The position numbers and the translations under genes are program-made. From positions 1 through 33,506 of the forward strand of contig VGXI01000011.1 in NCBI GenBank assembly GCA_016873475.1: 33,506 nucleotides of DNA, read 5' to 3'. Position 1 is the stretch's first letter; each line of letters starts with the position of its first letter. The notes beneath the pieces were generated by a model. It was not told the origin of the DNA, ran no database searches, and saw only the letters and a program-made list of their open reading frames with translations. This DNA comes from a bacterium (GTDB lineage: Bacteria > Krumholzibacteriota > Krumholzibacteriia > JACNKJ01). Below are positions 11,739 to 33,506 of the stretch, piece after piece.

Positions 11739-12083
11739 TGATGCTGGGAGGTGGGGGAGATCCCCCAATCGGCCTGGCTGGCGGTTCGGCGGCGCAAGAT
11801 GTTCTCTCGTATAATCTTACCTGCTCCGCCCCCACCGCGAAGGGGGCCAGATGACCCAGCCCGGCCCGGCCGGGGGGGCCGGAAGCTGCACCCGGCCCGC
11901 GAATCCGACCCTCCCCCCGCCGCCCAGCCGCGGCCGCCGGGCTTCCGGCCGCCTGTGCAGGCTCGGCTTGCGGGGGAGGGGGCCGCGCGAGGGATCCCCG
12001 GCCGGCGACCGGTGCCCAGCCCTCGCCCGGGCGGGGAACGCCGGTTGCGGAACCCAGTGTGGACGCCTGAGCAGGAGCCGCAG
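11739..12083 (+). promoter_or_regulatory. Gene-free 345 bases: TATAAT box and a long G+C-rich leader
   Basis: The stretch starts with a small hairpin after the Omp85 gene (TGGGGG-AGAT-CCCCCA, 11752-11767; no T-tract). A perfect -10 TATAAT lies at 11810-11815 with a weak -35 (TTCGGC, 11785-11790, 19-base spacer). Transcription from about 11822 would give a leader of roughly 260 bases, very rich in runs of G and C, before the metallopeptidase gene at 12084. Open frames through it have no recognisable protein signature. I see no known riboswitch consensus. Confidence 0.4.
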
Positions 12084-13160
12084 ATGCGCCAATTGACCCC
12101 CCAGATCCAGAGCCAGCCTGCCAGCAGCCGGACCTCCCGCCGGCTCCGCGCCTCGGCGCTCCTGCTCCTGGCGTCCAGCCTCGTCGCGCTGGCCGCGCCG
12201 CTCGCCGCCCAGGAGACCGTCTCGCTGAGCCTGGCCGGTGGCAGCGTCGTCCGCATCTACTCGGCGGACTACGTGCTGGCCAGGTGGGTGCGTTCTCTCG
12301 GCGAGCGCCTCTGGCTCGAGATCCCCGGCTATGGCAGCGCCGAGCTGCTGGTCCCGGGCAGCGCCACCGGCGCCGCCGCCTACTATCCGCACTCGGTCCC
12401 GGATGTCCGGGCGGCCCTGGCGGCCGTCGCGCATCCGGCGCTTCCGGAGAGCCTGAGCGTCTACTGCCTGCCCTACCCCCGCGCGGGCCTGACGAGCAGC
12501 TCCACGGCCGGCCGGCGCATCTTCCTCAGCCCGGGCATCCTGCCCTTCGCGCCGGAAGTCACGCACATGGTGGCGACCCACGAACTCGGGCACGTCGTGC
12601 ACAACTGCCACCTGCCCGACAGCGACCTCGCCGGCTGGGCGGCCTACCGGGGCCTCCGGAGCATCACCGATCTCAGCGTCTACTGCGAGGATGCCCAGCA
12701 CCGCAATCGACCGCACGAGATCTTCGCCGAGGACTTTCGCTTCCTCTTCGGCGGCGTCCTGGCCAACTACAGCGGCACCATCGAGAATGGCGCCCTGCCC
12801 CTGCCGGATGCGGTTCCCGGTCTCTTCAGCTTCTTGCTCGCGCTCGGCCAAGGCCAGGCCCTGGCGCCCGCGGCCGGCGAACTGGTGGCGAGCAACTACC
12901 CGAATCCTTTCAATCCGCAGACCCGGCTGACGGTCGAAGCCGCGCGCGGGTTCCTCGGCGCGCCGCTCAGCGTCGAGGTCTTCGATGCCGCCGGCCGCCT
13001 CGTGCGCCGGCTTCACGCTGGTGCCCTCGAACGCACGCGCCTGGAGCTGCAGTGGGACGGCTGCAACGAGCGCGGGGTCGCCCTCCCTACGGGCGTCTAC
13101 TTCGCGCGCGTCCGCCTGGGTGCGCAGCAACTGAGTCACAAGATGCTCCTGATCGGCTGA
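12084..13160 (+). CDS. Secreted zinc metallopeptidase-like protein with C-terminal FlgD/Ig-like sorting domain
   Basis: 358 residues. A signal peptide (hydrophobic core about 23-40, AAPLAAQ) precedes a domain with the zinc motif HELGH (His166, Glu167, His170). A third ligand could be Glu216 in HEIFAEDF, as in lethal-factor-like (ATLF) peptidases, or His176, which is at metzincin spacing although the usual Gly is His173. The C-terminus (about 268-358) begins NYPNPFNPQT and has the FlgD-like fold seen on exported proteins of the FCB group (ending in TGVYFARVRLG). ATG 12084 has AGGAG six bases upstream. The substrate is unknown. The gene is monocistronic, followed by a strong terminator. Confidence 0.8.
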   Translation: MRQLTPQIQSQPASSRTSRRLRASALLLLASSLVALAAPLAAQETVSLSLAGGSVVRIYSADYVLARWVRSLGERLWLEIPGYGSAELLVPGSATGAAAYYPHSVPDVRAALAAVAHPALPESLSVYCLPYPRAGLTSSSTAGRRIFLSPGILPFAPEVTHMVATHELGHVVHNCHLPDSDLAGWAAYRGLRSITDLSVYCEDAQHRNRPHEIFAEDFRFLFGGVLANYSGTIENGALPLPDAVPGLFSFLLALGQGQALAPAAGELVASNYPNPFNPQTRLTVEAARGFLGAPLSVEVFDAAGRLVRRLHAGALERTRLELQWDGCNERGVALPTGVYFARVRLGAQQLSHKMLLIG

Positions 13161-13183
13161 TTCCTCCTCACCTGGTCCCCCCG

Positions 13184-13222
13184 CCGCGGCGCCGTTCCCC
13201 CCGACGGCGCCGCGGTCCTTTT
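13184..13222 (+). terminator. Intrinsic terminator after the metallopeptidase gene
   Basis: A perfect 12-base stem (CCGCGGCGCCGT at 13184-13195 with ACGGCGCCGCGG at 13204-13215), eight-base loop, followed by TCCTTTT (13216-13222). It separates the metallopeptidase gene from ispH. Confidence 0.8.
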
Positions 13223-13252
13223 CGGAGCGCACGCTCTCTTGGCGCCCCTGCG

Positions 13253-13281
13253 TTGACAGGGGCCCGGGGCGCGTCTAGCTT
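13253..13281 (+). promoter_or_regulatory. Promoter of ispH
   Basis: A perfect -35 TTGACA (13253-13258), a 17-base spacer and TAGCTT (13276-13281). The predicted start at about 13288 leaves a short leader containing the GGAGG site of ispH (13294-13298). It is the clearest housekeeping promoter in the window. Confidence 0.7.
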
Positions 13282-13304
13282 CAGGCCAGCCCCGGAGGTC
13301 GCCC

Positions 13305-14156
13305 GTGCCCCGCCAGATCATCGTCGCTCGCAGCGCGGGCCAGTGCTTCGGCGTCAAGCGCGCCTTCAACGTCGCGATGGAGGCGGCCCGGAGCGAGGAC
13401 GCGGTGGTGATGCTGGGCGACATCGTGCACAACGAGCACGTCGTCAAGCGGATCGACGAGGCAGGCGTCAAGGTGGTCCGCGCGATCGAGCAGGCCGGCG
13501 CGAGCGGCACGCTGCTCGTGCGCGCCCATGGCGCCGCGCCCGAGGTCTACGCGCAGGCGCAGGCGCAGGGGCTCAAGATCCTCGACGCCACCTGCCCGCT
13601 GGTCCACGAGATCCACCAGGTGGCGCGCGAGATGGAGGGCGAGGGCTACCAGCTCATCGTCATCGGCGACCACGGGCACGACGAAGTGGTGGGCATCACG
13701 GGGCAGGTCAAGGACGCCATCGTCCTCGCCGGTCCCGACGAGGTCGCCCGGCGTGTTCCGGACCGCCTGCGCAAGGTCGGCGTCGTCGTGCAGTCCACGC
13801 AGAACATCGAGAACGTGCAGCGGATCCTCGTCGAGCTGCTGCCCCGTGTGCGCGAGCTGCGCTACGTGGACACCATCTGCGGCCCGACCAAGACCCACCA
13901 GCGCGACATCCGCGACCTGCCGGGCCGCTGTGACGTGATGGTCATCGTCGGCTCGTTCACGAGCGCCAACACCTGCCGCCTGACCGAGATCTCCCGCAGC
14001 ACGAACCCCCGCAGCCATCAGGTGGAGGACGCTTCCGGCCTCGATCCGGTCTGGTTCGTGGGCGCCGAGACGGTCGGCGTCAGTGCCGGCGCCTCGACGC
14101 CCGACTGGATCATCGACGAGGTCGTCAGGGCGCTCGAGGCGATGCCGGAGGGCTAG
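13305..14156 (+). CDS. ispH: 4-hydroxy-3-methylbut-2-enyl diphosphate reductase (IspH/LytB)
   Basis: 283 residues. It performs the last step of the MEP isoprenoid pathway, reducing HMBPP to IPP and DMAPP with a [4Fe-4S] cluster. Cluster ligands are Cys14 (GQCFGVKRA), Cys97 (DATCP) and Cys192 (TICGPT). Substrate residues His42, His75 and His125 and the proton-relay Glu127 (HGHDEVVG) are present, and Ser264 is kept (AGASTPDW). The usual Ser-Ser-Asn diphosphate clamp reads Ser220-Ala221-Asn222. The GTG at 13305 has GGAGG six bases upstream. It is monocistronic, with its own promoter, and unrelated in function to its neighbours. Confidence 0.96.
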   Translation: MPRQIIVARSAGQCFGVKRAFNVAMEAARSEDAVVMLGDIVHNEHVVKRIDEAGVKVVRAIEQAGASGTLLVRAHGAAPEVYAQAQAQGLKILDATCPLVHEIHQVAREMEGEGYQLIVIGDHGHDEVVGITGQVKDAIVLAGPDEVARRVPDRLRKVGVVVQSTQNIENVQRILVELLPRVRELRYVDTICGPTKTHQRDIRDLPGRCDVMVIVGSFTSANTCRLTEISRSTNPRSHQVEDASGLDPVWFVGAETVGVSAGASTPDWIIDEVVRALEAMPEG

Positions 14157-14173
14157 GGCCGGACAGCCGGCGC

Positions 14174-14203
14174 TTGGCCGTATCTTCGCGTTCATGCTAT
14201 ACT
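14174..14203 (+). promoter_or_regulatory. Promoter of the M14-S8 peptidase operon
   Basis: TTGGCC (14174-14179), 18 bases, TATACT (14198-14203). The start near 14210 gives a leader of about 55 bases. Confidence 0.5.
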
Positions 14204-14264
14204 TCAGTCCGTCGCCGGTGGGCGCCGGCGCCCGCGGATTCCGCATGCCCTCAGCAGAGGATGG

Positions 14265-16079
14265 ATGACGATGGGTCCGAGCCTCCTGCGCCGCGCCGCG
14301 GCGAACGGCCTCTCTCTCTGCCTGCTCCTCGCGGCGGGGGCCAGCCTGGCCGCGCCGCCGATCCCCACGGACGAACAGGGGCTGCCGGCCTGGGTGCCGG
14401 CCGTCTGGGTCGACTTCCCGGTCGAACTCACCCTGGCGGACGCCGACGCCGTCTCCGCCCTGCTCGACGCGGCGCCGATCGCGGCCTTCCAGCGCGAGGA
14501 CCTGCGTCCGGCGGCGCGCACCCCGTTCACGCGCGCCCTGCGCCTGCGCACGCGTGTCACCGAGACCGAGTTCGCTGCCCTCGAGGCCGCCGGTTACCAG
14601 CCCTTGCGCGTACCCGATCTGGAGCGCGCCCTGCAGACGGCGATCGAGGCTCGCTGGGCGGAACAGGCAGCCCGCGGCGGCGAGGCGCTCCGCGTCGGCG
14701 AGCGCGGCGTCTACCATACCTACGCCCAGCTCGGGCAGATCCTGCTCGACACCCAGACCGCGTATCCCGCGATCGCCAAGCGGGGCAGCCTCGGCACCTC
14801 GGTGCAGGGCCGCGAGCTGTGGACGCTCACGATCAGCGACAACGTGAACGGCGCCGAGGAAGCCGAGCCCGAGGTGCGCATCTCGGCGAACATCCACGGC
14901 AACGAGAAGATCGGCATGGAGCTGAGCCTCTACCTCATCGGCTACTTGACGGCGAACTACGGCCTCCCCGGCCACGAGGACGTCACCAACCTCGTCGACA
15001 ACTACCATCTGCTCTTCCTGCCTCTCCACAACCCGGACGGGCACGTCGCCAACACGCGCTCGAACGCGAACGGCGTCGATCTCAACCGCAACTACCCCGT
15101 GCCGGACGGCACGATCGGCGGCGACGGCACCTGGACAGAGCAGATCGAGACGCAGCGCATGAAGGCCTGGGGCTTCGCCACCCACTGCGTGATCAGCCAG
15201 GACGGCCACAGCGGAGCGCTGGTGGTGAACTACCCCTGGGACTACACCTACACGCTGGCACCGGACAACGACGCCCTCATCGCGCTGGCCGAGGAGTACA
15301 GCTACTACAACCAGCCGATGTGGAACGGCGACTTCTACCACGGCATCACCAACGGCGCGCAGTGGTACGTCACCAAGGGCAGTCTCCAAGATTGGGCCTA
15401 CCACGAGACCGGCAGCCTGCACCAGATCGTCGAGTTCAGCGACAGCTATGCGCCGCCGGCCGCCCAGCTCGACGCCTACTGGAACGACAACCGCGAGAGC
15501 TTCATGCACTGGATCAAGGCCGCGCGCTACGGCGTCGGCGGCCGTGTCACCGACGCCGGCACGGGCGCGCCGCTGGCGGCGACGGTCACGGTGATCGGCA
15601 TCGACAAGTCCGTCGCGACCGATCCGGACCTGGGCGACTACTACAAGCTGCTCGACACCGGCACCTACACGCTACGCTTCGAGGCGCCCGGCTACGTGAC
15701 GCAGACGATCGCCGGGGTCGGCACGACCTGGGGTACGCCCACCGTACTCGACGTCGCGCTCCTCGACGCGACGACTGACGCGCCGGTGCTTCCGCTGGCG
15801 GGGCTGCGCTTCGAGGGCAGCTTCCCCAATCCCTTCAATCCGACGACCACGCTGCGCTACCGGCTCCCGACCGACGCCGCAGTGAGCTTGGAGATCCTCG
15901 ACGCGCGCGGCCGCCGGGTGCGCAGCCTGCTCGAGAGCACGAGCCAGACGGCCGGCGCCCACGAGCTGCTCTGGAATGGACGGGACGAAGCGGGCCAGCC
16001 GCTGCCCAGCGGGCTCTATCAGGCCCGCTTGCGCGCGGGGGGGGAGGAGGCCGGGCTCAAGTTGCTGCTGCTGAAATAG
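14265..16079 (+). CDS. Secreted M14-family zinc carboxypeptidase with C-terminal FlgD-like domain
   Basis: 604 residues. Signal peptide (about 1-30), a propeptide-like region (30-145), the M14 catalytic domain (about 148-415), a carboxypeptidase regulatory-like beta domain (about 424-510) and a FlgD/Ig-like sorting domain (about 515-604, FPNPFNPTTT). Zinc ligands are His211 and Glu214 (NIHGNEKIG) and His315 (GHSGALVVN). Arg275 in LNRNYP would hold the substrate carboxylate and Glu390 (QIVEFSD) is the catalytic base, so the enzyme looks active. It should remove C-terminal residues from peptides outside the cell. AGAGG (14256-14260) suits ATG 14265 (spacing 4) or ATG 14271 (spacing 10). The S8 gene follows by 22 bases, so they are probably one operon. 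Confidence 0.92.
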   Translation: MTMGPSLLRRAAANGLSLCLLLAAGASLAAPPIPTDEQGLPAWVPAVWVDFPVELTLADADAVSALLDAAPIAAFQREDLRPAARTPFTRALRLRTRVTETEFAALEAAGYQPLRVPDLERALQTAIEARWAEQAARGGEALRVGERGVYHTYAQLGQILLDTQTAYPAIAKRGSLGTSVQGRELWTLTISDNVNGAEEAEPEVRISANIHGNEKIGMELSLYLIGYLTANYGLPGHEDVTNLVDNYHLLFLPLHNPDGHVANTRSNANGVDLNRNYPVPDGTIGGDGTWTEQIETQRMKAWGFATHCVISQDGHSGALVVNYPWDYTYTLAPDNDALIALAEEYSYYNQPMWNGDFYHGITNGAQWYVTKGSLQDWAYHETGSLHQIVEFSDSYAPPAAQLDAYWNDNRESFMHWIKAARYGVGGRVTDAGTGAPLAATVTVIGIDKSVATDPDLGDYYKLLDTGTYTLRFEAPGYVTQTIAGVGTTWGTPTVLDVALLDATTDAPVLPLAGLRFEGSFPNPFNPTTTLRYRLPTDAAVSLEILDARGRRVRSLLESTSQTAGAHELLWNGRDEAGQPLPSGLYQARLRAGGEEAGLKLLLLK

Positions 16080-16101
16080 ACCGCCACCGAAAGGACGGAG
16101 G

Positions 16102-17826
16102 ATGCCGCGCTCCCTCACCGCGCTGCTCGCTCTCGCTGTTCTCGGTTTGGCCGGCGGGGCGACGCCTGCCGGCGCCGCGCTCGTCGCCCCCGAGTTGCCC
16201 GCCCTGCTTGCCGCCGGCCCGCAGCCGGTCTGGGTCTTCTTCGCCGACAAGGGTGTGCCGGCGAACGATCTCGCCGTCCTGCGCGCCGCCGAGGCGCGCC
16301 TGAGCGACCGCTGTCTCGCGCGCCGCGCGCGCGCCGGCGTCCCGGGCGCCGCCTGGATCGATCTCCCCAATGCGCCCGCCTACCTCGAGGCTCTGCACGC
16401 GGAGGGCCTGACGATCCGCGCCGAGAGCCGCTGGCTGGCCGCGGTCTCCGTGGCCGTGGATCAGTCCAGCCTCATCCGCCTCGCCGCCCTCCCCTGGGTG
16501 GTGCGCCTGGAGCCCGTGCGCGCCTCGGCGCCGCGCGCGCCCTGGCTCGATCCCGCGCCGTCGGCGCGTTCGCACGCGACCGCGATCGGGCGCGAGGATC
16601 CCCTCGACTACGGCGGCAGCTTGACCGAGCTCGCGCAGCTCCAGGTGCCGCCCGTACACCTGCGCGGATTCCACGGCGAGGGCGTGGTCGTCGGCATGCT
16701 GGACTCGGGCTTCAACACCACGCACGAAGCCCTGGCCGGCCTCACGGTGCTCGGCGCCTGGGACTTCATCAACGACGATCCCATCGTCGCCAACGAGCCG
16801 GGCGATCCGGAGGGTCAGCAGAACCACGGCACGATGACCCTCTCCACGCTCGCCGGCTACAAGCCGGGCGCCCTGATCGGCCCGGCCTTCGGGGCCAGCT
16901 TCTATCTGGCCAAGACCGAGGACGCGAGCCAGGAAGTCCCCGTCGAAGAGGACTACTGGGTCGAAGGCATCGAGTGGCTCGAGGCCCAGGGCTGCGACAT
17001 CGTCAGCTCGAGCCTCGCCTACGACGACTGGTACAGCTTCGCGGACTTCGACGGGAACACCTGCGTGACGACGATCGCCGCCGACCAGGCCGTCGCCCTC
17101 GGCGTCGCCGTCTTCAACAGCGCGGGCAACTACCGGCTGACGACGGGCACGATCGCCGCGCCCGCCGACGGCGACAGCGTCATCGCGGCCGGGGCGGTCG
17201 ACGCCGCCGGCCTGATCGCGAGCTTCAGCTCGCCGGGACCCACGGCCGATGGGCGCATCAAGCCCGACCTCTGCGCGATGGGCGTTGCGAACCACGTCGT
17301 GAAGCCGGGCACCCTGAACGAGTACCGGAGCGCCTCCGGGACCAGCTTCTCCTGCCCGCTCGCGGCGGGCGTGGGCGCGCTGCTGCTCGGCGCGCATCCG
17401 GGCACCAGCCCGATGCGGCTGCGCCAGGCCCTGCGCAGTACGGCGAGCCAGGCCGACAGCCCCGACAACGATTACGGCTGGGGGATCATCGACGCCCTGG
17501 CCGCGCTGGATTACCTCGACGCCCTGACCCCGGCGTCCGCGGCGACGCCGGCCTTCACGCTGGCCGGGGCCTGGCCCAATCCCTTCAACCCCGCGACGCG
17601 CATCGGCTTCACGCTCGATCGCGAGCTGGATCTGCGCCTGGACATCCACGACCTCCAGGGGCGCCGCGTGCGCACGCTCGTCGCCGCGGTTCTCCCTGCC
17701 GGCGCGCACACGGCGAACTGGGACGGCCGCGATGGCGCCGGCCGACCCCTGGCGAGCGGCGTCTACCTCGCGCGCCTCGCGGCCGGCGGCGAGCAGCGAA
17801 CGCTCAAGCTGCTGCTCCTCGAGTAG
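16102..17826 (+). CDS. Secreted S8-family subtilisin-like serine peptidase with C-terminal FlgD-like domain
   Basis: 574 residues. A signal peptide (1-26) is followed by a propeptide region (about 30-150, including an inhibitor-like segment) and the subtilase domain (about 185-470). The catalytic triad is complete: Asp201 (GMLDSGF), His242 (QNHGTMTLSTLAG) and Ser415 (SGTSFSCP), with the oxyanion Asn343 (NSAGN). The last 90 residues start WPNPFNPATR and form the FlgD/Ig-like domain that probably directs export or surface attachment. The start is ATG 16102 with GGACGGAGG just upstream. It is probably co-transcribed with the M14 gene. Confidence 0.93.
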   Translation: MPRSLTALLALAVLGLAGGATPAGAALVAPELPALLAAGPQPVWVFFADKGVPANDLAVLRAAEARLSDRCLARRARAGVPGAAWIDLPNAPAYLEALHAEGLTIRAESRWLAAVSVAVDQSSLIRLAALPWVVRLEPVRASAPRAPWLDPAPSARSHATAIGREDPLDYGGSLTELAQLQVPPVHLRGFHGEGVVVGMLDSGFNTTHEALAGLTVLGAWDFINDDPIVANEPGDPEGQQNHGTMTLSTLAGYKPGALIGPAFGASFYLAKTEDASQEVPVEEDYWVEGIEWLEAQGCDIVSSSLAYDDWYSFADFDGNTCVTTIAADQAVALGVAVFNSAGNYRLTTGTIAAPADGDSVIAAGAVDAAGLIASFSSPGPTADGRIKPDLCAMGVANHVVKPGTLNEYRSASGTSFSCPLAAGVGALLLGAHPGTSPMRLRQALRSTASQADSPDNDYGWGIIDALAALDYLDALTPASAATPAFTLAGAWPNPFNPATRIGFTLDRELDLRLDIHDLQGRRVRTLVAAVLPAGAHTANWDGRDGAGRPLASGVYLARLAAGGEQRTLKLLLLE

Positions 17827-27924: not shown

Positions 27925-27953
27925 TGGCATCTCCGGCGCGCGTCGATTATGCT
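27925..27953 (+). promoter_or_regulatory. Candidate promoter of the NtrC-type regulator gene
   Basis: TGGCAT (27925-27930), 17 bases, TATGCT (27948-27953). The start at about 27960 leaves a short leader with the TGGAGG ribosome site (27968-27973). Confidence 0.4.
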
Positions 27954-27978
27954 CGCTCGGACAGGACTGGAGGCAACG

Positions 27979-29367
27979 ATGAGCGTACGCCTGCTCGTGG
28001 TGGACGACGAGGCCGGGGTCCGCGAATCCCTGGGCAAGATCCTGCGCTACGAGGGCTTCACCGTGGAGATGGCCGCCGACGGCCCGACCGCGCTCGCGCT
28101 CGCCGAGCGGCAGGCCTTCGATCTCGTGTTCCTCGACATCAAGATGCCGGGCATGGACGGTCTCGAGGTGCTCACCCGCCTGGGCGAGGGCGGCCTGGCG
28201 ATGCCGGTCGTCATCATCTCCGGGCACGGCACCGTGGAGACGGCCGTCCAGGCCACGAAGCTGGGGGCATTCGACTTCCTCGAGAAGCCGCTGGACGCCG
28301 ACCGCGTCCTGGTCACCCTGCGCAACGCGCTGGCCTGGCTCGAGCAGCAACGCCAGATCGAGTCGCTGCGCCAGCGCCTGGGCGAGGGCGAGCAGATCGT
28401 GGGGGAGAGCGCGGCCGTGCGCGCCCTGCTCAAGGGAATCGAGCGGGTGGCGCCGACGGACGCCCGCGTGCTGATCACCGGCGAGAACGGTTCGGGCAAG
28501 GAGCTGGTCGCCCGGCGCATCCACCGCCTGAGCGCGCGCGCCGGAGGCCCCTTCGTCGACGTCAACTGCGCTGCCATTCCCAACGAGCTGATCGAGAGCG
28601 AGCTCTTCGGGCACGAGAAGGGCAGCTTCACCGGGGCGCACCAGCAGCGGCGCGGTCGCTTCGAGCAGGCCGACGGCGGCACGCTCTTCCTCGACGAGAT
28701 CGGCGACATGTCCTTGACCGCGCAGGCCAAGGTCCTGCGCGTCCTGCAGGAGGGGAAGTTCGAGCGCGTCGGCGGCACCGTGACCCTGCAGGTCAACGTG
28801 CGGGTCATCGCCGCCACGAACAAGGACCTGCTGGCCGAGGCGGCCGAGAATCGCTTCCGGGAGGACCTCTTCTACCGCCTCAACGTCGTGCCGCTGCAGG
28901 TGCCGCCCCTGCGCGAACGGCCGGAGGACATCCCCTTGCTCGCCAAGCATTTCACCGAGCTCTACCTGCGCGAGCAGGGGATGCGGCCCAAGCTCTTCGC
29001 CCCCGCGGCGCTGGACCGCCTGCGCGCCTACCGCTGGCCCGGCAACATCCGCGAGCTGCGCAATCTCGTCGAGCGCCTGCTCATCATGGCGCCGGGCGAG
29101 CGGATCGAGGCGGAGGATGTCCCGCCGGCCGCCGGCGGCGGCGCCGAGGCGGAGGACTCGCTCTTCGCCGCCCCCAGCTTCCAGCTCTTCAAGGAGCGCA
29201 GCGAGGCGGCCTACCTCGCCCGGAAACTCCGGGAGTATGGGGGTAACGTGAGCCGCACGGCCCGCGCCCTGGAGATGCAGCGCAGCAATCTCTACAAGAA
29301 GATTGAAAAATATGGACTTACGACCGGCCGACCGGAAGCCGAGGAAGGCCCTGAGGAGGACGACTAG
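27979..29367 (+). CDS. NtrC-family sigma54-dependent response regulator
   Basis: 462 residues. The receiver domain (1-120) has the acidic pair Asp9/Asp10, phospho-acceptor Asp53 (FLDIKMPGMDG), Ser81 and Lys103. The AAA+ domain (about 138-370) has Walker A GENGSGKE (168-175), the sigma54-contact loop GSFTGA (215-220, Ala to Ser from GAFTGA) and Walker B GGTLFLDE (233-240). The C-terminal Fis-type helix-turn-helix lies at about 405-445. The acidic tail EEGPEEDD is unusual. The start is ATG 27979 with TGGAGG five bases upstream. No histidine kinase gene is adjacent, so its input is unknown. NtrX- or AtoC-like subfamilies are possible. Confidence 0.93.
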   Translation: MSVRLLVVDDEAGVRESLGKILRYEGFTVEMAADGPTALALAERQAFDLVFLDIKMPGMDGLEVLTRLGEGGLAMPVVIISGHGTVETAVQATKLGAFDFLEKPLDADRVLVTLRNALAWLEQQRQIESLRQRLGEGEQIVGESAAVRALLKGIERVAPTDARVLITGENGSGKELVARRIHRLSARAGGPFVDVNCAAIPNELIESELFGHEKGSFTGAHQQRRGRFEQADGGTLFLDEIGDMSLTAQAKVLRVLQEGKFERVGGTVTLQVNVRVIAATNKDLLAEAAENRFREDLFYRLNVVPLQVPPLRERPEDIPLLAKHFTELYLREQGMRPKLFAPAALDRLRAYRWPGNIRELRNLVERLLIMAPGERIEAEDVPPAAGGGAEAEDSLFAAPSFQLFKERSEAAYLARKLREYGGNVSRTARALEMQRSNLYKKIEKYGLTTGRPEAEEGPEEDD

Positions 29368-29444: not shown

Positions 29445-29506
29445 TCCCCATGCCGCCCTGGAATCGCGAGGCGGCGGGTTCTTACCCTTGCCAGGAGCAT
29501 TCGACG

Positions 29507-29854
29507 ATGAGAAGGGGCGCAATCACCTGTCTTTTCATCCTGGCCCTGCTGATTGCCAGCAGTCTCAGCCTGGGCAATGCACCTGATTCAGCCCTGAGCA
29601 CCGGCGAGACGGCGGCGCTCGCCGAGACGCCACCCGCAGGCGAAGTCCCGACGGGCCTCGCTGCCGGCGGGGGGGGCGGCAACGGCGGCAACGGCGGCGA
29701 CGGCGGTCCCGGCAATAGCCTCTCTGGCGACGACGACGACTACTGGGACGGCGTCAACAACGATGAGGAGCCGCCGCGCTCGCAGCACGATCTGAATCTG
29801 ATCCTGCTGATTCTGGAGGCGTGGATGCGCACGGAGTACTGGCTGTTGCCGTAA
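29507..29854 (+). CDS. Small secreted Gly/Asp-rich protein, function unknown
   Basis: 115 residues. A signal peptide (basic MRRG, hydrophobic TCLFILALLIASSLSLG) is followed by an Ala/Glu/Thr linker, a poly-Gly stretch with GGN/GGD triplets (about 65-80), an acidic patch DDDDYWDG, and a hydrophobic amphipathic C-terminus ending EYWLLP. The ATG at 29507 has AGGAG nine bases upstream and a good promoter. A longer in-frame start (29450) would add 19 residues before the signal peptide and is less likely. The TPR-sigma54 regulator starts 56 bases downstream with no promoter visible between, so they are probably co-transcribed. I do not recognise a family. An exported signal or surface microprotein is an inference from context. 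Confidence 0.7.
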   Translation: MRRGAITCLFILALLIASSLSLGNAPDSALSTGETAALAETPPAGEVPTGLAAGGGGGNGGNGGDGGPGNSLSGDDDDYWDGVNNDEEPPRSQHDLNLILLILEAWMRTEYWLLP

Positions 29855-29858
29855 CCGT

Positions 29859-29874
29859 CGCGGCTCACGCCGCG
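29859..29874 (+). other. Short stem-loop between the small gene and the TPR regulator gene
   Basis: A perfect six-base stem CGCGGC / GCCGCG around TCAC, five bases after the small gene's stop. There is no T-tract, so a full terminator is unlikely. It could protect the upstream mRNA end or lower expression of the downstream regulator relative to the small protein. Confidence 0.35.
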
Positions 29875-29910
29875 CCCTCTGAGTACGTCCACCCCACAAA
29901 GGACGAACCG

Positions 29911-32900
29911 ATGAGAGAGCCAGATCGCAGCGGTCCCCAGGAGTTCCAGCAGCAGGCGGGACGCGCCCCCCTGCCCTCGCTGGTCAGCTCCAGCGACACC
30001 GAGGCCATGGGGGATTTCCACTTCTCCTCGGAGAACTACACCCTCGCGCTCGAGTATTTCGAGCAGGCCTACCAGAACCTCCAGAACGAGGGCCCGAGGG
30101 CCGAACTCTGGCGACTGGCCTTCAAGCTCGGCGAGAGCTATCACCGCAAGGGCCTCGACAACGAGGCCCGTGAGTGGTTCTACCTCGCGCAGGCCAGGCT
30201 CAAGGGCCGCGAAACGAGCCTGGAGTTCGGCCTCGTCCTCGATCGCATCGGGATGGTCCACCTGTACACGAGCAGCCCCGAGGAAGCCCTCCAGTTCTGC
30301 TTCCAGGCCTACGAGTTGCTCAAGAACTCCTCGCTCCACAGCGAGGTGGCGGAGAACCTGAACCGCATCGCGATCATCTACTCCCGCCTCGGCTATCCCC
30401 GCGAAGCCGAGGAGTTCTTCACCGATGCCCTCGTCACCTACCGCCGGATCGACGACCACCGCGGGGTCATCGGCGCCACGATGAACCTGGGCCTGCTCAA
30501 GAAGAACGCTTGCGATTTCGAAGGCGCGCTGGTGCTCTTCAACAAGAGCATGGCGCTGGCCAAGCAGCACTCTTTGCACGGCGTTCGCATCAGCCTGCTG
30601 CTCAACATCGGCATCGTCTACTTCAAGCAGGGGCGGCACCGCGACGCCTCCGAGATGTGCATCCGCGCCCGGCGCCTGGCGCGCGAGGCGGGCGACGAGG
30701 GCAAGGCGGCGCGCGCCACCAGTTCCCTCGGCCGGGTGCAGATCCAACTGGGCAACTTCCGGCGCGCGGAGCAGCTCCTGCTCGAGAGCCGCGTGCTCGC
30801 CGAGAAGAACCGGCAGCAGCGCAGCCTGGCGCTCGCCGATGAGTTCCTCGGCGAGCTGGCCGAGGCGAAAGGCGATCTCGAGGCCGCCCTCGCCAACTAC
30901 GAGCTGGCGCTCGGGCTCGCGCGCCAGATCGCGCCCAAGGGCGACGTCGTCGTCGAGCTGCTGCAGCGAATCGCACGCGTGCAACTCAAGCAGGGGCTGC
31001 CCTTGGAGGCGCTGCGCAGCGCCGAACGTGGCCTCAAGCTCACCGAGAGCAACGGCGAGCTGTTCGAGGTGCCGCACCTCTATCGAACCCAGGCCCGCGC
31101 CTGGCTGCGCCTCGAAAGCAGCGAGAAAGCGGAAGCCGCGTTCCGCAATGCACTGCAGGCTTTCCAGCATACCCGAGAGCAGGGCGAGGAGGACCGGACC
31201 AAGCTCGAGTACTGCGGACTGCTCTTTGCGCGCCGTGCGCTCGAGGACGCGCTGCGCGCCCGCAAGCTGCTCGAAGATCTGCTCCAGCACCGCTGTGACG
31301 AGACCTGCGATCGCTTCTGCTTCGAGGCGAGCCTGTTGCTCGCGTGTGTCGAGAGCTGGCTCGGCGACCTCGATCGCGCGCTGCTCGCGGTCTTCGACGC
31401 CGAGGGTTATCTGCCGGCCGACGCCGACGCCGCGGAGCGCGAGGAGCTCGACCGCGTGCGTCTCGAAGTCGAGCAGCGCAAGATCGCCCAGGGCGGGAGC
31501 GGATTCGGCTTCCTGCCGGGTGCGCAGAAGACCTTGCTCGGCGGCCGCGAGGATCTGCCCGAAGACCTGCGGCGCGCCTGGCGCAGTCTGTTCGAGCTCT
31601 GCGACGCCGATGCCGGCTGTCTCTGCATGGATGGCGCCGACGGCGGCCCCTTCGAATTCCTCGAGGGCATGACCCGGGCCGAAGTCGCGGGCCTGCGCGA
31701 GTCGGGGGGCGGCGGCGAAAGCGCGGAGAGCGCCGGGAGCGCTGGGAGCGAGGGTCCCGCCAGCTCGCTGCTCTTCCAGCCCCTGGTTCACTCGGGCAAG
31801 GAGATGGGATTCCTCTGCCTCTGGCGTCGGCGGCCCGGCGAACCCGGCTTCTCCCGCGAGATGGTGCGCTACATCGCGGGCTTCGCTCGCATGGTAACCC
31901 TCATCGCCTGTCAGGAGCGCGAACGCCTGCAGCGGCACTCCGTGCCGCTGAGCGAGCTGCCCGAGGCAACGCAGCACATCATCACCCGCGATCCGGGCAT
32001 GCTCGAGCTGCTGCACCTGACCGGCAAGGTGGCGGAGACCGACGCCTGGGTGCTGCTCAGCGGCGAAACCGGCACAGGCAAGGGGGTGCTCGCCTACGCG
32101 ATCCATCGTTTGAGCAACCGGCGCGACCGGCGCTTCGTGCATGTCAACTGCGCGGCTCTGCCGGAAGAGCTGCTCGAGAGCGAGCTCTTCGGGCACGTGC
32201 GAGGTTCATTCACGGGCGCCATCCACGACAAGCCGGGTCTCATCGAGGAGGCCAACGGCGGCACGCTCTTCCTGGACGAGGTGGGCAAGACCTCGCTCAA
32301 GATGCAGGCAAAGCTGCTGCAATTCCTCGACACGCGGGAGATCCGGCGCGTGGGCGCCAACGACAGCATTCCGGTCAACGTGCGCCTGATCACGGCGACG
32401 AAGACCGACCTCAAGGAATTGTCGCGCCAGGGTCGTTTCCTGGAGGATCTCTACTATCGCCTCAACGACTTCCCGCTGCGGATGCCGCCCCTGCGCGAGC
32501 GCGTGGGCGATGTCGCCCTGCTGGCCGAGTACTTCCTGGATCGCTACGGCGCCGACTTCGGCAAGCACCTGCGCGGCATCTCCCAACGCGCGATGCTCAA
32601 GCTCGAGAGCCATGCCTGGCCGGGCAACGTGCGCGAGCTCGAGAAGGTGATCAAGCGCGCCTTGCTGCTCAGCCCGGACGAGCAGCCGCTAGCCAGCGAA
32701 GCGATCGTGCTCGAGGACACCCTGCAGGGAGCCGCGAAGGGGCAGGTGCCTGGCCTGGACTTGAACCTGAAGCGGCAGGTGGGCGAACTGGAGCGCCAGC
32801 TGCTGGTCGAGGCGCTGGAGCAGGCCGAGTGGAACCGCACGCGCGCTTGCCGGAGCTTGGGGATCAGCTACCCGACCCTCCTGCAGAAGATCCGCAAGTA

Positions 32901-32916
32901 CGACCTCGACGTCTGA
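29911..32916 (+). CDS. TPR-GAF-like-sigma54 activator (bacterial enhancer-binding protein with TPR sensor)
   Basis: 1001 residues. The N-terminal half (about 36-540) is a run of tetratricopeptide repeats (for example FSSENYTLALEYFEQAYQNL and LGYPREAEEFFTDALVTY). A GAF-like segment (about 545-690) is interrupted by a Gly/Ser/Glu-rich linker. The AAA+ sigma54-interaction domain (about 690-930) has Walker A GETGTGKG (718-725; the last position is normally Glu), the loop GSFTGA (765-770) and Walker B GGTLFLDE (783-790) followed by VGK. A Fis-type helix-turn-helix ends the protein (about 955-998). There is no receiver domain, so activity is probably set by a ligand or protein bound to the TPR/GAF part. 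ATG 29911 has AAAGGA seven bases upstream. A sigma54 promoter lies 284 bases past its stop. Confidence 0.9.
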   Translation: MREPDRSGPQEFQQQAGRAPLPSLVSSSDTEAMGDFHFSSENYTLALEYFEQAYQNLQNEGPRAELWRLAFKLGESYHRKGLDNEAREWFYLAQARLKGRETSLEFGLVLDRIGMVHLYTSSPEEALQFCFQAYELLKNSSLHSEVAENLNRIAIIYSRLGYPREAEEFFTDALVTYRRIDDHRGVIGATMNLGLLKKNACDFEGALVLFNKSMALAKQHSLHGVRISLLLNIGIVYFKQGRHRDASEMCIRARRLAREAGDEGKAARATSSLGRVQIQLGNFRRAEQLLLESRVLAEKNRQQRSLALADEFLGELAEAKGDLEAALANYELALGLARQIAPKGDVVVELLQRIARVQLKQGLPLEALRSAERGLKLTESNGELFEVPHLYRTQARAWLRLESSEKAEAAFRNALQAFQHTREQGEEDRTKLEYCGLLFARRALEDALRARKLLEDLLQHRCDETCDRFCFEASLLLACVESWLGDLDRALLAVFDAEGYLPADADAAEREELDRVRLEVEQRKIAQGGSGFGFLPGAQKTLLGGREDLPEDLRRAWRSLFELCDADAGCLCMDGADGGPFEFLEGMTRAEVAGLRESGGGGESAESAGSAGSEGPASSLLFQPLVHSGKEMGFLCLWRRRPGEPGFSREMVRYIAGFARMVTLIACQERERLQRHSVPLSELPEATQHIITRDPGMLELLHLTGKVAETDAWVLLSGETGTGKGVLAYAIHRLSNRRDRRFVHVNCAALPEELLESELFGHVRGSFTGAIHDKPGLIEEANGGTLFLDEVGKTSLKMQAKLLQFLDTREIRRVGANDSIPVNVRLITATKTDLKELSRQGRFLEDLYYRLNDFPLRMPPLRERVGDVALLAEYFLDRYGADFGKHLRGISQRAMLKLESHAWPGNVRELEKVIKRALLLSPDEQPLASEAIVLEDTLQGAAKGQVPGLDLNLKRQVGELERQLLVEALEQAEWNRTRACRSLGISYPTLLQKIRKYDLDV

Positions 32917-33199: not shown

Positions 33200-33215
33200 T
33201 GGCACATTCTCTGCT
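33200..33215 (+). promoter_or_regulatory. Sigma54 (RpoN) -24/-12 promoter
   Basis: TGGCACATTCTCTGCT: GG at 33201-33202 and GC at 33213-33214 with exactly ten bases between. Against the family consensus TGGCAC-N5-TTGCW only the first T of the -12 block differs (C). Transcription would start near 33226. It is the best sigma54 site I find in the window and follows the gene of a sigma54 activator. Confidence 0.7.
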
Positions 33216-33225
33216 GAAGCCGCCG

Positions 33226-33498
33226 TGAAGCGCGGAGGGGCCAGGCCTGGCAGGTATGAGGGCCCATTCCAAACTTCCTCGAGGGATTTCGAACGGAAAT
33301 GATAGGGGAAGTCAGCCGGATTCGATGCCTTCCCTCGAGTTGGCCGCCGGTTTCCGGTGAGTCGGTTGATTCAGTCCCGGCGTGAAGTGTGGGGCAACAC
33401 GCCGAGACAACCGGAGAGCGACGGTCGCAGGAGATGAACTCCTCTCCTTGATGCTGAGATGTGCAAGGCGAGAGGGCGCGAGCCCTCTTGCCTTTTTT
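33226..33498 (+). ncRNA. Candidate sigma54-dependent structured RNA (small RNA or leader)
   Basis: About 270 bases from the predicted sigma54 start to a strong terminator, with no convincing gene. Inverted repeats: the palindrome GCCAGGCCTGGC (33240-33251); CTCGAGGGA / TCCCTCGAG (33278-33286, 33331-33339) enclosing ATTTC / GAAAT (33286-33290, 33296-33300); an alternative GGGAAG / CTTCCC (33306-33311, 33329-33334); CGGTTG / CAACCG (33363-33368, 33408-33413) enclosing CGGCGTG / CACGCCG (33378-33384, 33398-33404); AGGAG / CTCCT (33429-33433, 33439-33443). A 34-codon ATG frame (33256-33360) has no ribosome site. It matches no RNA family I know. It could also be the leader of a gene beyond the window. 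Confidence 0.4.
33465..33498 (+). terminator. Strong intrinsic terminator
   Basis: A 13-base stem (33465-33477 with 33482-33494, one G-U pair), GCGA tetraloop of the GNRA type, and six T residues (33493-33498). It is the best-formed terminator in the window and has no protein gene just before it. Confidence 0.85.
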
Positions 33499-33506
33499 CA
33501 GCTTTT

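Follow-up and report, generated by a model that had tools for sequence, protein, structure and literature searches.

Small RNA genes that are transcribed from sigma54 promoters and lie beside the gene of their own activator are known mainly from Gammaproteobacteria, and most of these RNAs rely on Hfq. CbrB is a two-component response regulator, and CrcZ acts as a sponge for Hfq/Crc through its CA motifs; the Qrr RNAs, about 100 nt long, are Hfq-dependent, and GlrR–GlmY and NtrC–NrsZ are further pairs in which a sigma54-dependent small RNA is controlled by an activator. The gene crcZ lies immediately 3' of cbrB, whose product switches it on through RpoN-dependent promoters (PMC10562864); the Vibrio quorum regulatory RNA is transcribed by sigma54 together with an enhancer-binding protein (PMC10162802), and GlmY belongs to the GlmY/GlmZ/RapZ system (PMC7073468).

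The window analysed here is a stretch of 33,506 nucleotides that makes up the entire contig C11 of a 3.6-Mb MAG (425 contigs) from the class Krumholzibacteriia, phylum Krumholzibacteriota – a phylum for which our literature search found no paper on small RNAs. Its end resembles CbrB–crcZ in that a small RNA gene of a few hundred nt, with a sigma54 promoter of its own, comes right after a sigma54 activator gene, and resembles LuxO–qrr1 in that a predicted sigma54-driven RNA goes with an enhancer-binding protein. We consider it probable that positions 33200-33498 hold the complete gene of a regulatory small RNA, about 270 nt long, partner of the TPR–sigma54 activator upstream. The features on which the following discussion draws are these:

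27949-29367, forward strand: NtrC/NtrX-type sigma54 response regulator, the next gene upstream (Pfam, NCBIfam)
29450-29854, forward strand: exported Gly/Asp-rich peptide precursor of about 115-134 aa, directly 5' of the activator (found by pattern; translation may begin only at the ATG 29507)
29821-32916, forward strand: TPR–sigma54 activator with TPR repeats, AAA+ sigma54-interaction domain and Fis-type HTH (Pfam; class-wide homologs)
33200-33215, forward strand: -24/-12 (sigma54-type) promoter element TGGCACATTCTCTGCT, GG-N10-GC, score 19.2/20.7 (sequence)
33226-33492, forward strand: structured non-coding RNA (MFE z -4.53; conserved in 4 genera; no Rfam match)
33234-33270, forward strand: 5' hairpin with the conserved internal hairpin GCCU-GGC-AGGU at 33245-33255 (individual folds, alignments)
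33278-33339, forward strand: second hairpin, stem 33278-33286/33331-33339, containing the conserved GAUNGGGGAANUCAGCCG block (folds, alignments)
33354-33414, forward strand: domain of three helices with the AAGUGUGGGGCAA apical loop at its end, GUGGGG lying at 33389-33394 (compensatory changes, covariance model)
33446-33462, forward strand: conserved CCUUGAUGCUGAGAUGU block 5' of the terminator (alignment of 3 genera)
33467-33498, forward strand: intrinsic terminator with an 11-bp stem (33467-33477/33482-33492), a GCGA loop and T6 at 33493-33498 (sequence, fold)

The differences from the described pairs are equally clear. In contrast to CbrB–crcZ, the activator contains TPRs, the RNA has a compact fold with covariation, and Hfq was not found; the CrcZ covariance model from Rfam gave no match. 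Unlike LuxO, the activator is without a receiver domain and scores 227.6 bits where the LuxO equivalog cut-off is 800, and the Qrr covariance model from Rfam gave no match at the gathering threshold. Nor does the locus follow GlrR–GlmY or NtrC–NrsZ: the RNA has no Rfam match, and the activator is neither a GlrR nor an NtrC equivalog and has another type of sensor. Since the LuxO model stays far below its cut-off, Rfam has no match and Hfq was not found in 19 genomes, the locus is like CbrB–crcZ and LuxO–qrr1 in arrangement and is a member of neither. Indeed, Rfam searches at gathering and permissive thresholds returned nothing credible for the RNA, whose family appears to be undescribed. Like the ornate large non-coding RNAs OLE, GOLLD, ROOL and raiA, whose function is, or long was, unknown, the RNA described here is large, highly structured and lineage-restricted; unlike these, it goes with an activator and a promoter dedicated to it, and has no Rfam match.

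A first-pass annotation of this DNA had placed a TPR-type sigma54 activator directly upstream of the RNA, and the Pfam matches bear this out: TPR_12 repeats, Sigma54_activat at 720-886 (PF00158, E 1.7e-64) and a Fis HTH at 988-1027 (HTH_8, 4.6e-12), with the GSFTGA loop present in the translation. The protein thus combines the AAA+ sigma54-interaction domain and C-terminal HTH that define bacterial enhancer-binding proteins, and no receiver domain was found in it by Pfam. Its reading frame starts with GTG, the true start lying perhaps some 60 nt later. Upstream of the peptide gene, both in the window and in the related genome G003, lies an NtrC-type response regulator; going by linkage, we infer that the adjacent activator, rather than this regulator, drives the promoter at 33200-33215. 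Elsewhere in the window (11751-17823), several secreted-type proteins – a Peptidase_S8, a Peptidase_M14 and one without another domain – carry C-terminal FlgD_ig-like domains, perhaps sorting domains.

The small gene between the response regulator and the activator recalls a different group of systems. RRNPP receptors are TPR proteins. In the RRNPP systems of Firmicutes, the gene for an exported propeptide adjoins that for the intracellular receptor (PMC10075063). Similarly, the activator is preceded by a gene encoding an exported, Gly/Asp-rich peptide some 100 aa long at 29/29 loci with upstream sequence (controls: 1/29 on the antisense strand, 0/29 further upstream), and the C-terminus of the precursor is hydrophobic or aromatic in the window and 28 relatives. 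The precursor has no Pfam or NCBIfam match. This adjacency hints at a signalling circuit, in which sensing of the peptide would be putative; unlike in RRNPP systems, the TPRs belong to a sigma54 AAA+ activator, and the phylum is another one.

At the RNA gene itself, the near-perfect -24/-12 element announced for 33200-33215 is present (19.2/20.7), with TGGCACATTCTCTGCT lying 283 bp past the activator stop (32916). A lone match of this kind is weak evidence, as it is not rare in GC-rich DNA – at a low threshold, some site occurs in 78% of shuffles of the same 590-bp stretch – and the real evidence is recurrence across loci. Such an element is found on the sense strand at +180..+500 past the activator at 55/58 orthologous loci, compared with 8 loci for the antisense strand and 6.3 (maximum 12) after dinucleotide shuffling. 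From the usual spacing between -12 and +1, transcription is predicted to start at about 33226. The first-pass annotation had also described about 270 structured, gene-free bases and a terminator at 33465-33498, and both descriptions hold. The MFE of 33226-33492 is -126.2 kcal/mol as against -103.6 +- 5.0 in shuffles (z -4.53), none of 200 shuffles being equally stable; a coding signal is absent, the longest ORF averaging 55 aa in 59 such RNAs and 53 in shuffles; and an intrinsic terminator occupies 33467-33498.

Within the window's own family (f1), the RNA-bearing relatives are JAFGBK01 (Candidatus Krumholzibacteriota) and JAAEPZ01. A DNA search recovered the RNA region in genomes G003 and G001 right behind the activator ortholog (65-67% protein identity), and the -24/-12 element is found in 4/4 f1 genomes, 211-283 bp past the activator stop. 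The fold is best seen in the domain at 33354-33414, in which a closing helix is joined by two hairpins, one short and one of 11 bp with the G-rich loop at its tip: across the 4 genera of f1, 13/21 of its pairs have changed on both sides (5.5 in shuffles), and 96.4% of cells are paired, a figure that drops to at most 48% when partners are slid by one column. A covariance model of this domain (R3) finds one copy per f1 genome, at the RNA locus, and elsewhere non-significant matches only. A gapped pattern scan of a collection of 84,980 genomes returned only these two f1 relatives plus two chance matches, in Cohnella phaseoli and Planctomycetes bacterium Pan216, which were discarded on reading.

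Across the class, activator homologs occur in 80/80 genomes examined, those outside f1 showing 35-40% identity over about 1000 aa wherever the alignment is unbroken, and the region downstream of the activator could be read in about 60 of the 80. The loci fall into eight families (f1 to f8), throughout which the activator, the -24/-12 element and a structured RNA stay linked. GUGGGG is present in 57/57 of the RNAs (antisense 1/57, upstream 3, shuffles 9.7), and the longer GGUGGGGUC in 44/57 (antisense 0, shuffles 0.2). In f4, where the RNAs are roughly 320-380 nt long, 94.9% of cells are paired and 31/69 pairs show double changes (14.7 in shuffles). A covariance model of the f4 central domain detects f5 members at the same locus (E 1.9e-8 to 5e-5), and in a joint alignment of 32 f4 and f5 sequences, 43/46 pairs show double changes, with 226 such cells against 61.6 in shuffles – although this alignment was fitted to the structure, so the f4 MAFFT figure (31/69) is the fairer one. 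For f1, f4 and f4+f5 alike, 0/500 shuffles reach the double-change counts, and sliding the partners destroys the pairing.

When the widened f4+f5 model was run on 387 genomes, mostly from outside the phylum, all 35 matches fell in f4 and f5 of the class; wrong-strand matches, which are due to the symmetry of the structure, were excluded from the alignment. Significant matches sit at the activator locus, one per genome, with none outside the class among the 387 genomes. The f4 and f4+f5 models gave no significant match in f1, f2, f3 or f6, nor did the f1 model in other families; the putative equivalence of the f1, f2, f3/f7 and f6/f8 RNAs to those of f4/f5 therefore rests on position, promoter and GUGGGG, and sequence homology of all eight families is not claimed. 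As regards the first-pass annotation, the covarying base pairs that it had proposed to look for in homologous loci are found in f1 (13/21), f4 (31/69) and f4+f5 (43/46); the promoter element and the stems, whose loss in relatives would have spoken against its reading, are conserved, and there is no conserved reading frame through the region. Its suggestion of a new activator–small RNA pair is likewise supported by class-wide linkage, conserved promoter and covariation.

The RNA has not kept a single form across the class. In f3 and f7, a short sigma54-driven RNA carries GGUGGGGUCUC in a long terminator hairpin and is followed by a second RNA (RNA2) of about 100-110 nt, which has a TTGACA-like (sigma70-like) promoter and contains a three-way junction as well as two hairpins, one with GGAAUGGCGAGAUCC and one that exposes CAUCCCC. 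RNA2 is seen at L022:765-949 (reverse strand), L059:1314-1498 (reverse strand), L072:869-1053 (forward strand) and 13 other loci, with conserved GGACAUCCCCUCCGG and GGCGAGAU motifs; its pattern matches at the activator locus only, and in f3 and f7 only, and RNA2 of L022 has no Rfam match. The single RNA of f4 ends in a terminator domain with a similar GGCGAGA hairpin and a three-way junction. Because the RNA2-like hairpin and junction thus form the 3' domain of the f4 RNA, f3/f7 would seem to be a split version of the f4-type single RNA. By eye, kissing between the first RNA (RNA1) and RNA2 in f3 would involve no more than 4 continuous G-C pairs, or 6 including a U-U mismatch.

Between the activator stop and the promoter, two dyads found post hoc come back with constant spacing at loci of f3, f4 and f7: TRTAAA-N5..7-TTWAYM at about -135/-155 (36/62, against 1.3 in shuffles) and YAACNNRTTG at about -76/-85 (25/62, against 2.1). 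They resemble upstream activator (enhancer) sites, any binding protein being putative. In f1, such enhancer-like boxes were not seen.

What follows the RNA bears on whether it stands alone. The first-pass annotation had allowed for an attenuated leader belonging to some gene beyond the window edge, and the sequence after 33506 can be read from contig C102, whose first bases (1-95) share 92 bases with the window end (33410-33506) and then run into a cytochrome c7 gene. Because the same cytochrome gene follows the RNA in G002 (63% protein identity), C102 is very probably the continuation of the window. On this evidence, the RNA might be an attenuator-bearing 5' leader, driven by sigma54, of a cytochrome c7/alternative complex III-like operon: in both C102 and G002 the cytochrome gene is on the same strand and starts about 80-130 nt past the terminator, and in f2-f8 a gene for an FnIII-like lipoprotein commonly follows the RNA on the same strand. 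However, the cytochrome gene has its own promoter-like site of the TTGAC type, and the next gene differs even within f1 – the cytochrome c7 operon in the window's genome and G002, a ClpB-like ATPase in G003 and an unrelated region in G001 – so that the fixed downstream gene expected of a cis-acting leader or riboswitch is not found. The lipoprotein, too, has its own strong -24/-12 element in 28/28 cases in which the start was located, and in f1 its homologs are encoded on different contigs, with the RNA still beside the activator, which argues that the RNA goes with the activator rather than being a lipoprotein leader. With a variable next gene in f1 and an independent lipoprotein promoter in other families, we regard the leader reading as improbable.

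The lipoprotein gene (L023:5288-6028, forward strand, and equivalents), which follows the RNA with a near-perfect -24/-12 element and is missing from that place in f1, was judged FnIII-like by eye and has no Pfam match. In several families (L036, L040, L037, L043), a TGTCC...GGACA-like element lies soon past the RNA terminator, possibly as an activator site for the lipoprotein promoter.

Returning to a stand-alone small RNA partnered with the TPR–sigma54 activator, a mechanism can be outlined. A cue, possibly the peptide, would trigger the TPR region of the activator, which would switch on sigma54-RNA polymerase at 33200-33215; the RNA would be made, stopped at its terminator and act in trans without Hfq, most likely by showing the invariant G-rich apical loop (GUGGGG), held in place by a rigid scaffold, to a partner that may be RNA or protein. 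The RNA would then be the output arm of a regulon that elsewhere in the class includes the FnIII-like lipoprotein gene. An antisense seed in the motif was considered and dropped: the complement of AGGUGGGGUCU and CCCCAC words in the lipoprotein leader are not enriched. The exact complement AGACCCCACCT of the f3-f8 motif is likewise not enriched genome-wide, nor are words complementary to the motif near the lipoprotein start.

Among possible protein partners, CsrA/RsmA deserves mention, as CsrA genes occur in 13/19 genomes, the window's included, and the RNA has several GGA triplets that might, if placed in loops, make it a sequestering sponge. Nevertheless, the six genomes that lack CsrA (G005, G012, G013, G015, G016 and G018) all have the RNA at the locus, the invariant GUGGGG contains no GGA, and the RNA does not fold into the repeated simple hairpins known from CsrB; given the absence of CsrA from 6/19 genomes, a CsrA sponge is very unlikely. 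The genomes without CsrA are those sampled from f6 and f7, some from f3 and one from f5. An Hfq-dependent base-pairing RNA of the Qrr, CrcZ or GlmY type, suggested by the shared arrangement of activator beside sigma54-driven small RNA as in cbrB–crcZ (PMC10562864), is strongly disfavoured and the least likely reading of all, since Hfq was found in 0/19 Krumholzibacteriia genomes by a search that was positive in control genomes, Rfam has no match and sites complementary to the motif are not enriched.

A bolder and rather doubtful extension would see in the locus a circuit for peptide signalling, found throughout a class of a Gram-negative phylum, in which the exported Gly/Asp-rich peptide would act on the TPRs of the sigma54 activator and this in turn on an ornate, Hfq-independent RNA of a new family, split in f3/f7 so that one part is sigma54-driven (GGUGGGGUC hairpin) and the other has a separate promoter of sigma70 type (GGCGAGA and CCCC-exposing hairpins). 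What the locus offers is a single-copy, deeply conserved activator–RNA pair in a phylum where Hfq has not been detected and molecular genetics hardly exists. With its class-wide motifs, strong covariation and absence from Rfam, the RNA may therefore serve as an entry point to Hfq-free riboregulation, and also to what TPR-type sigma54 activators sense.
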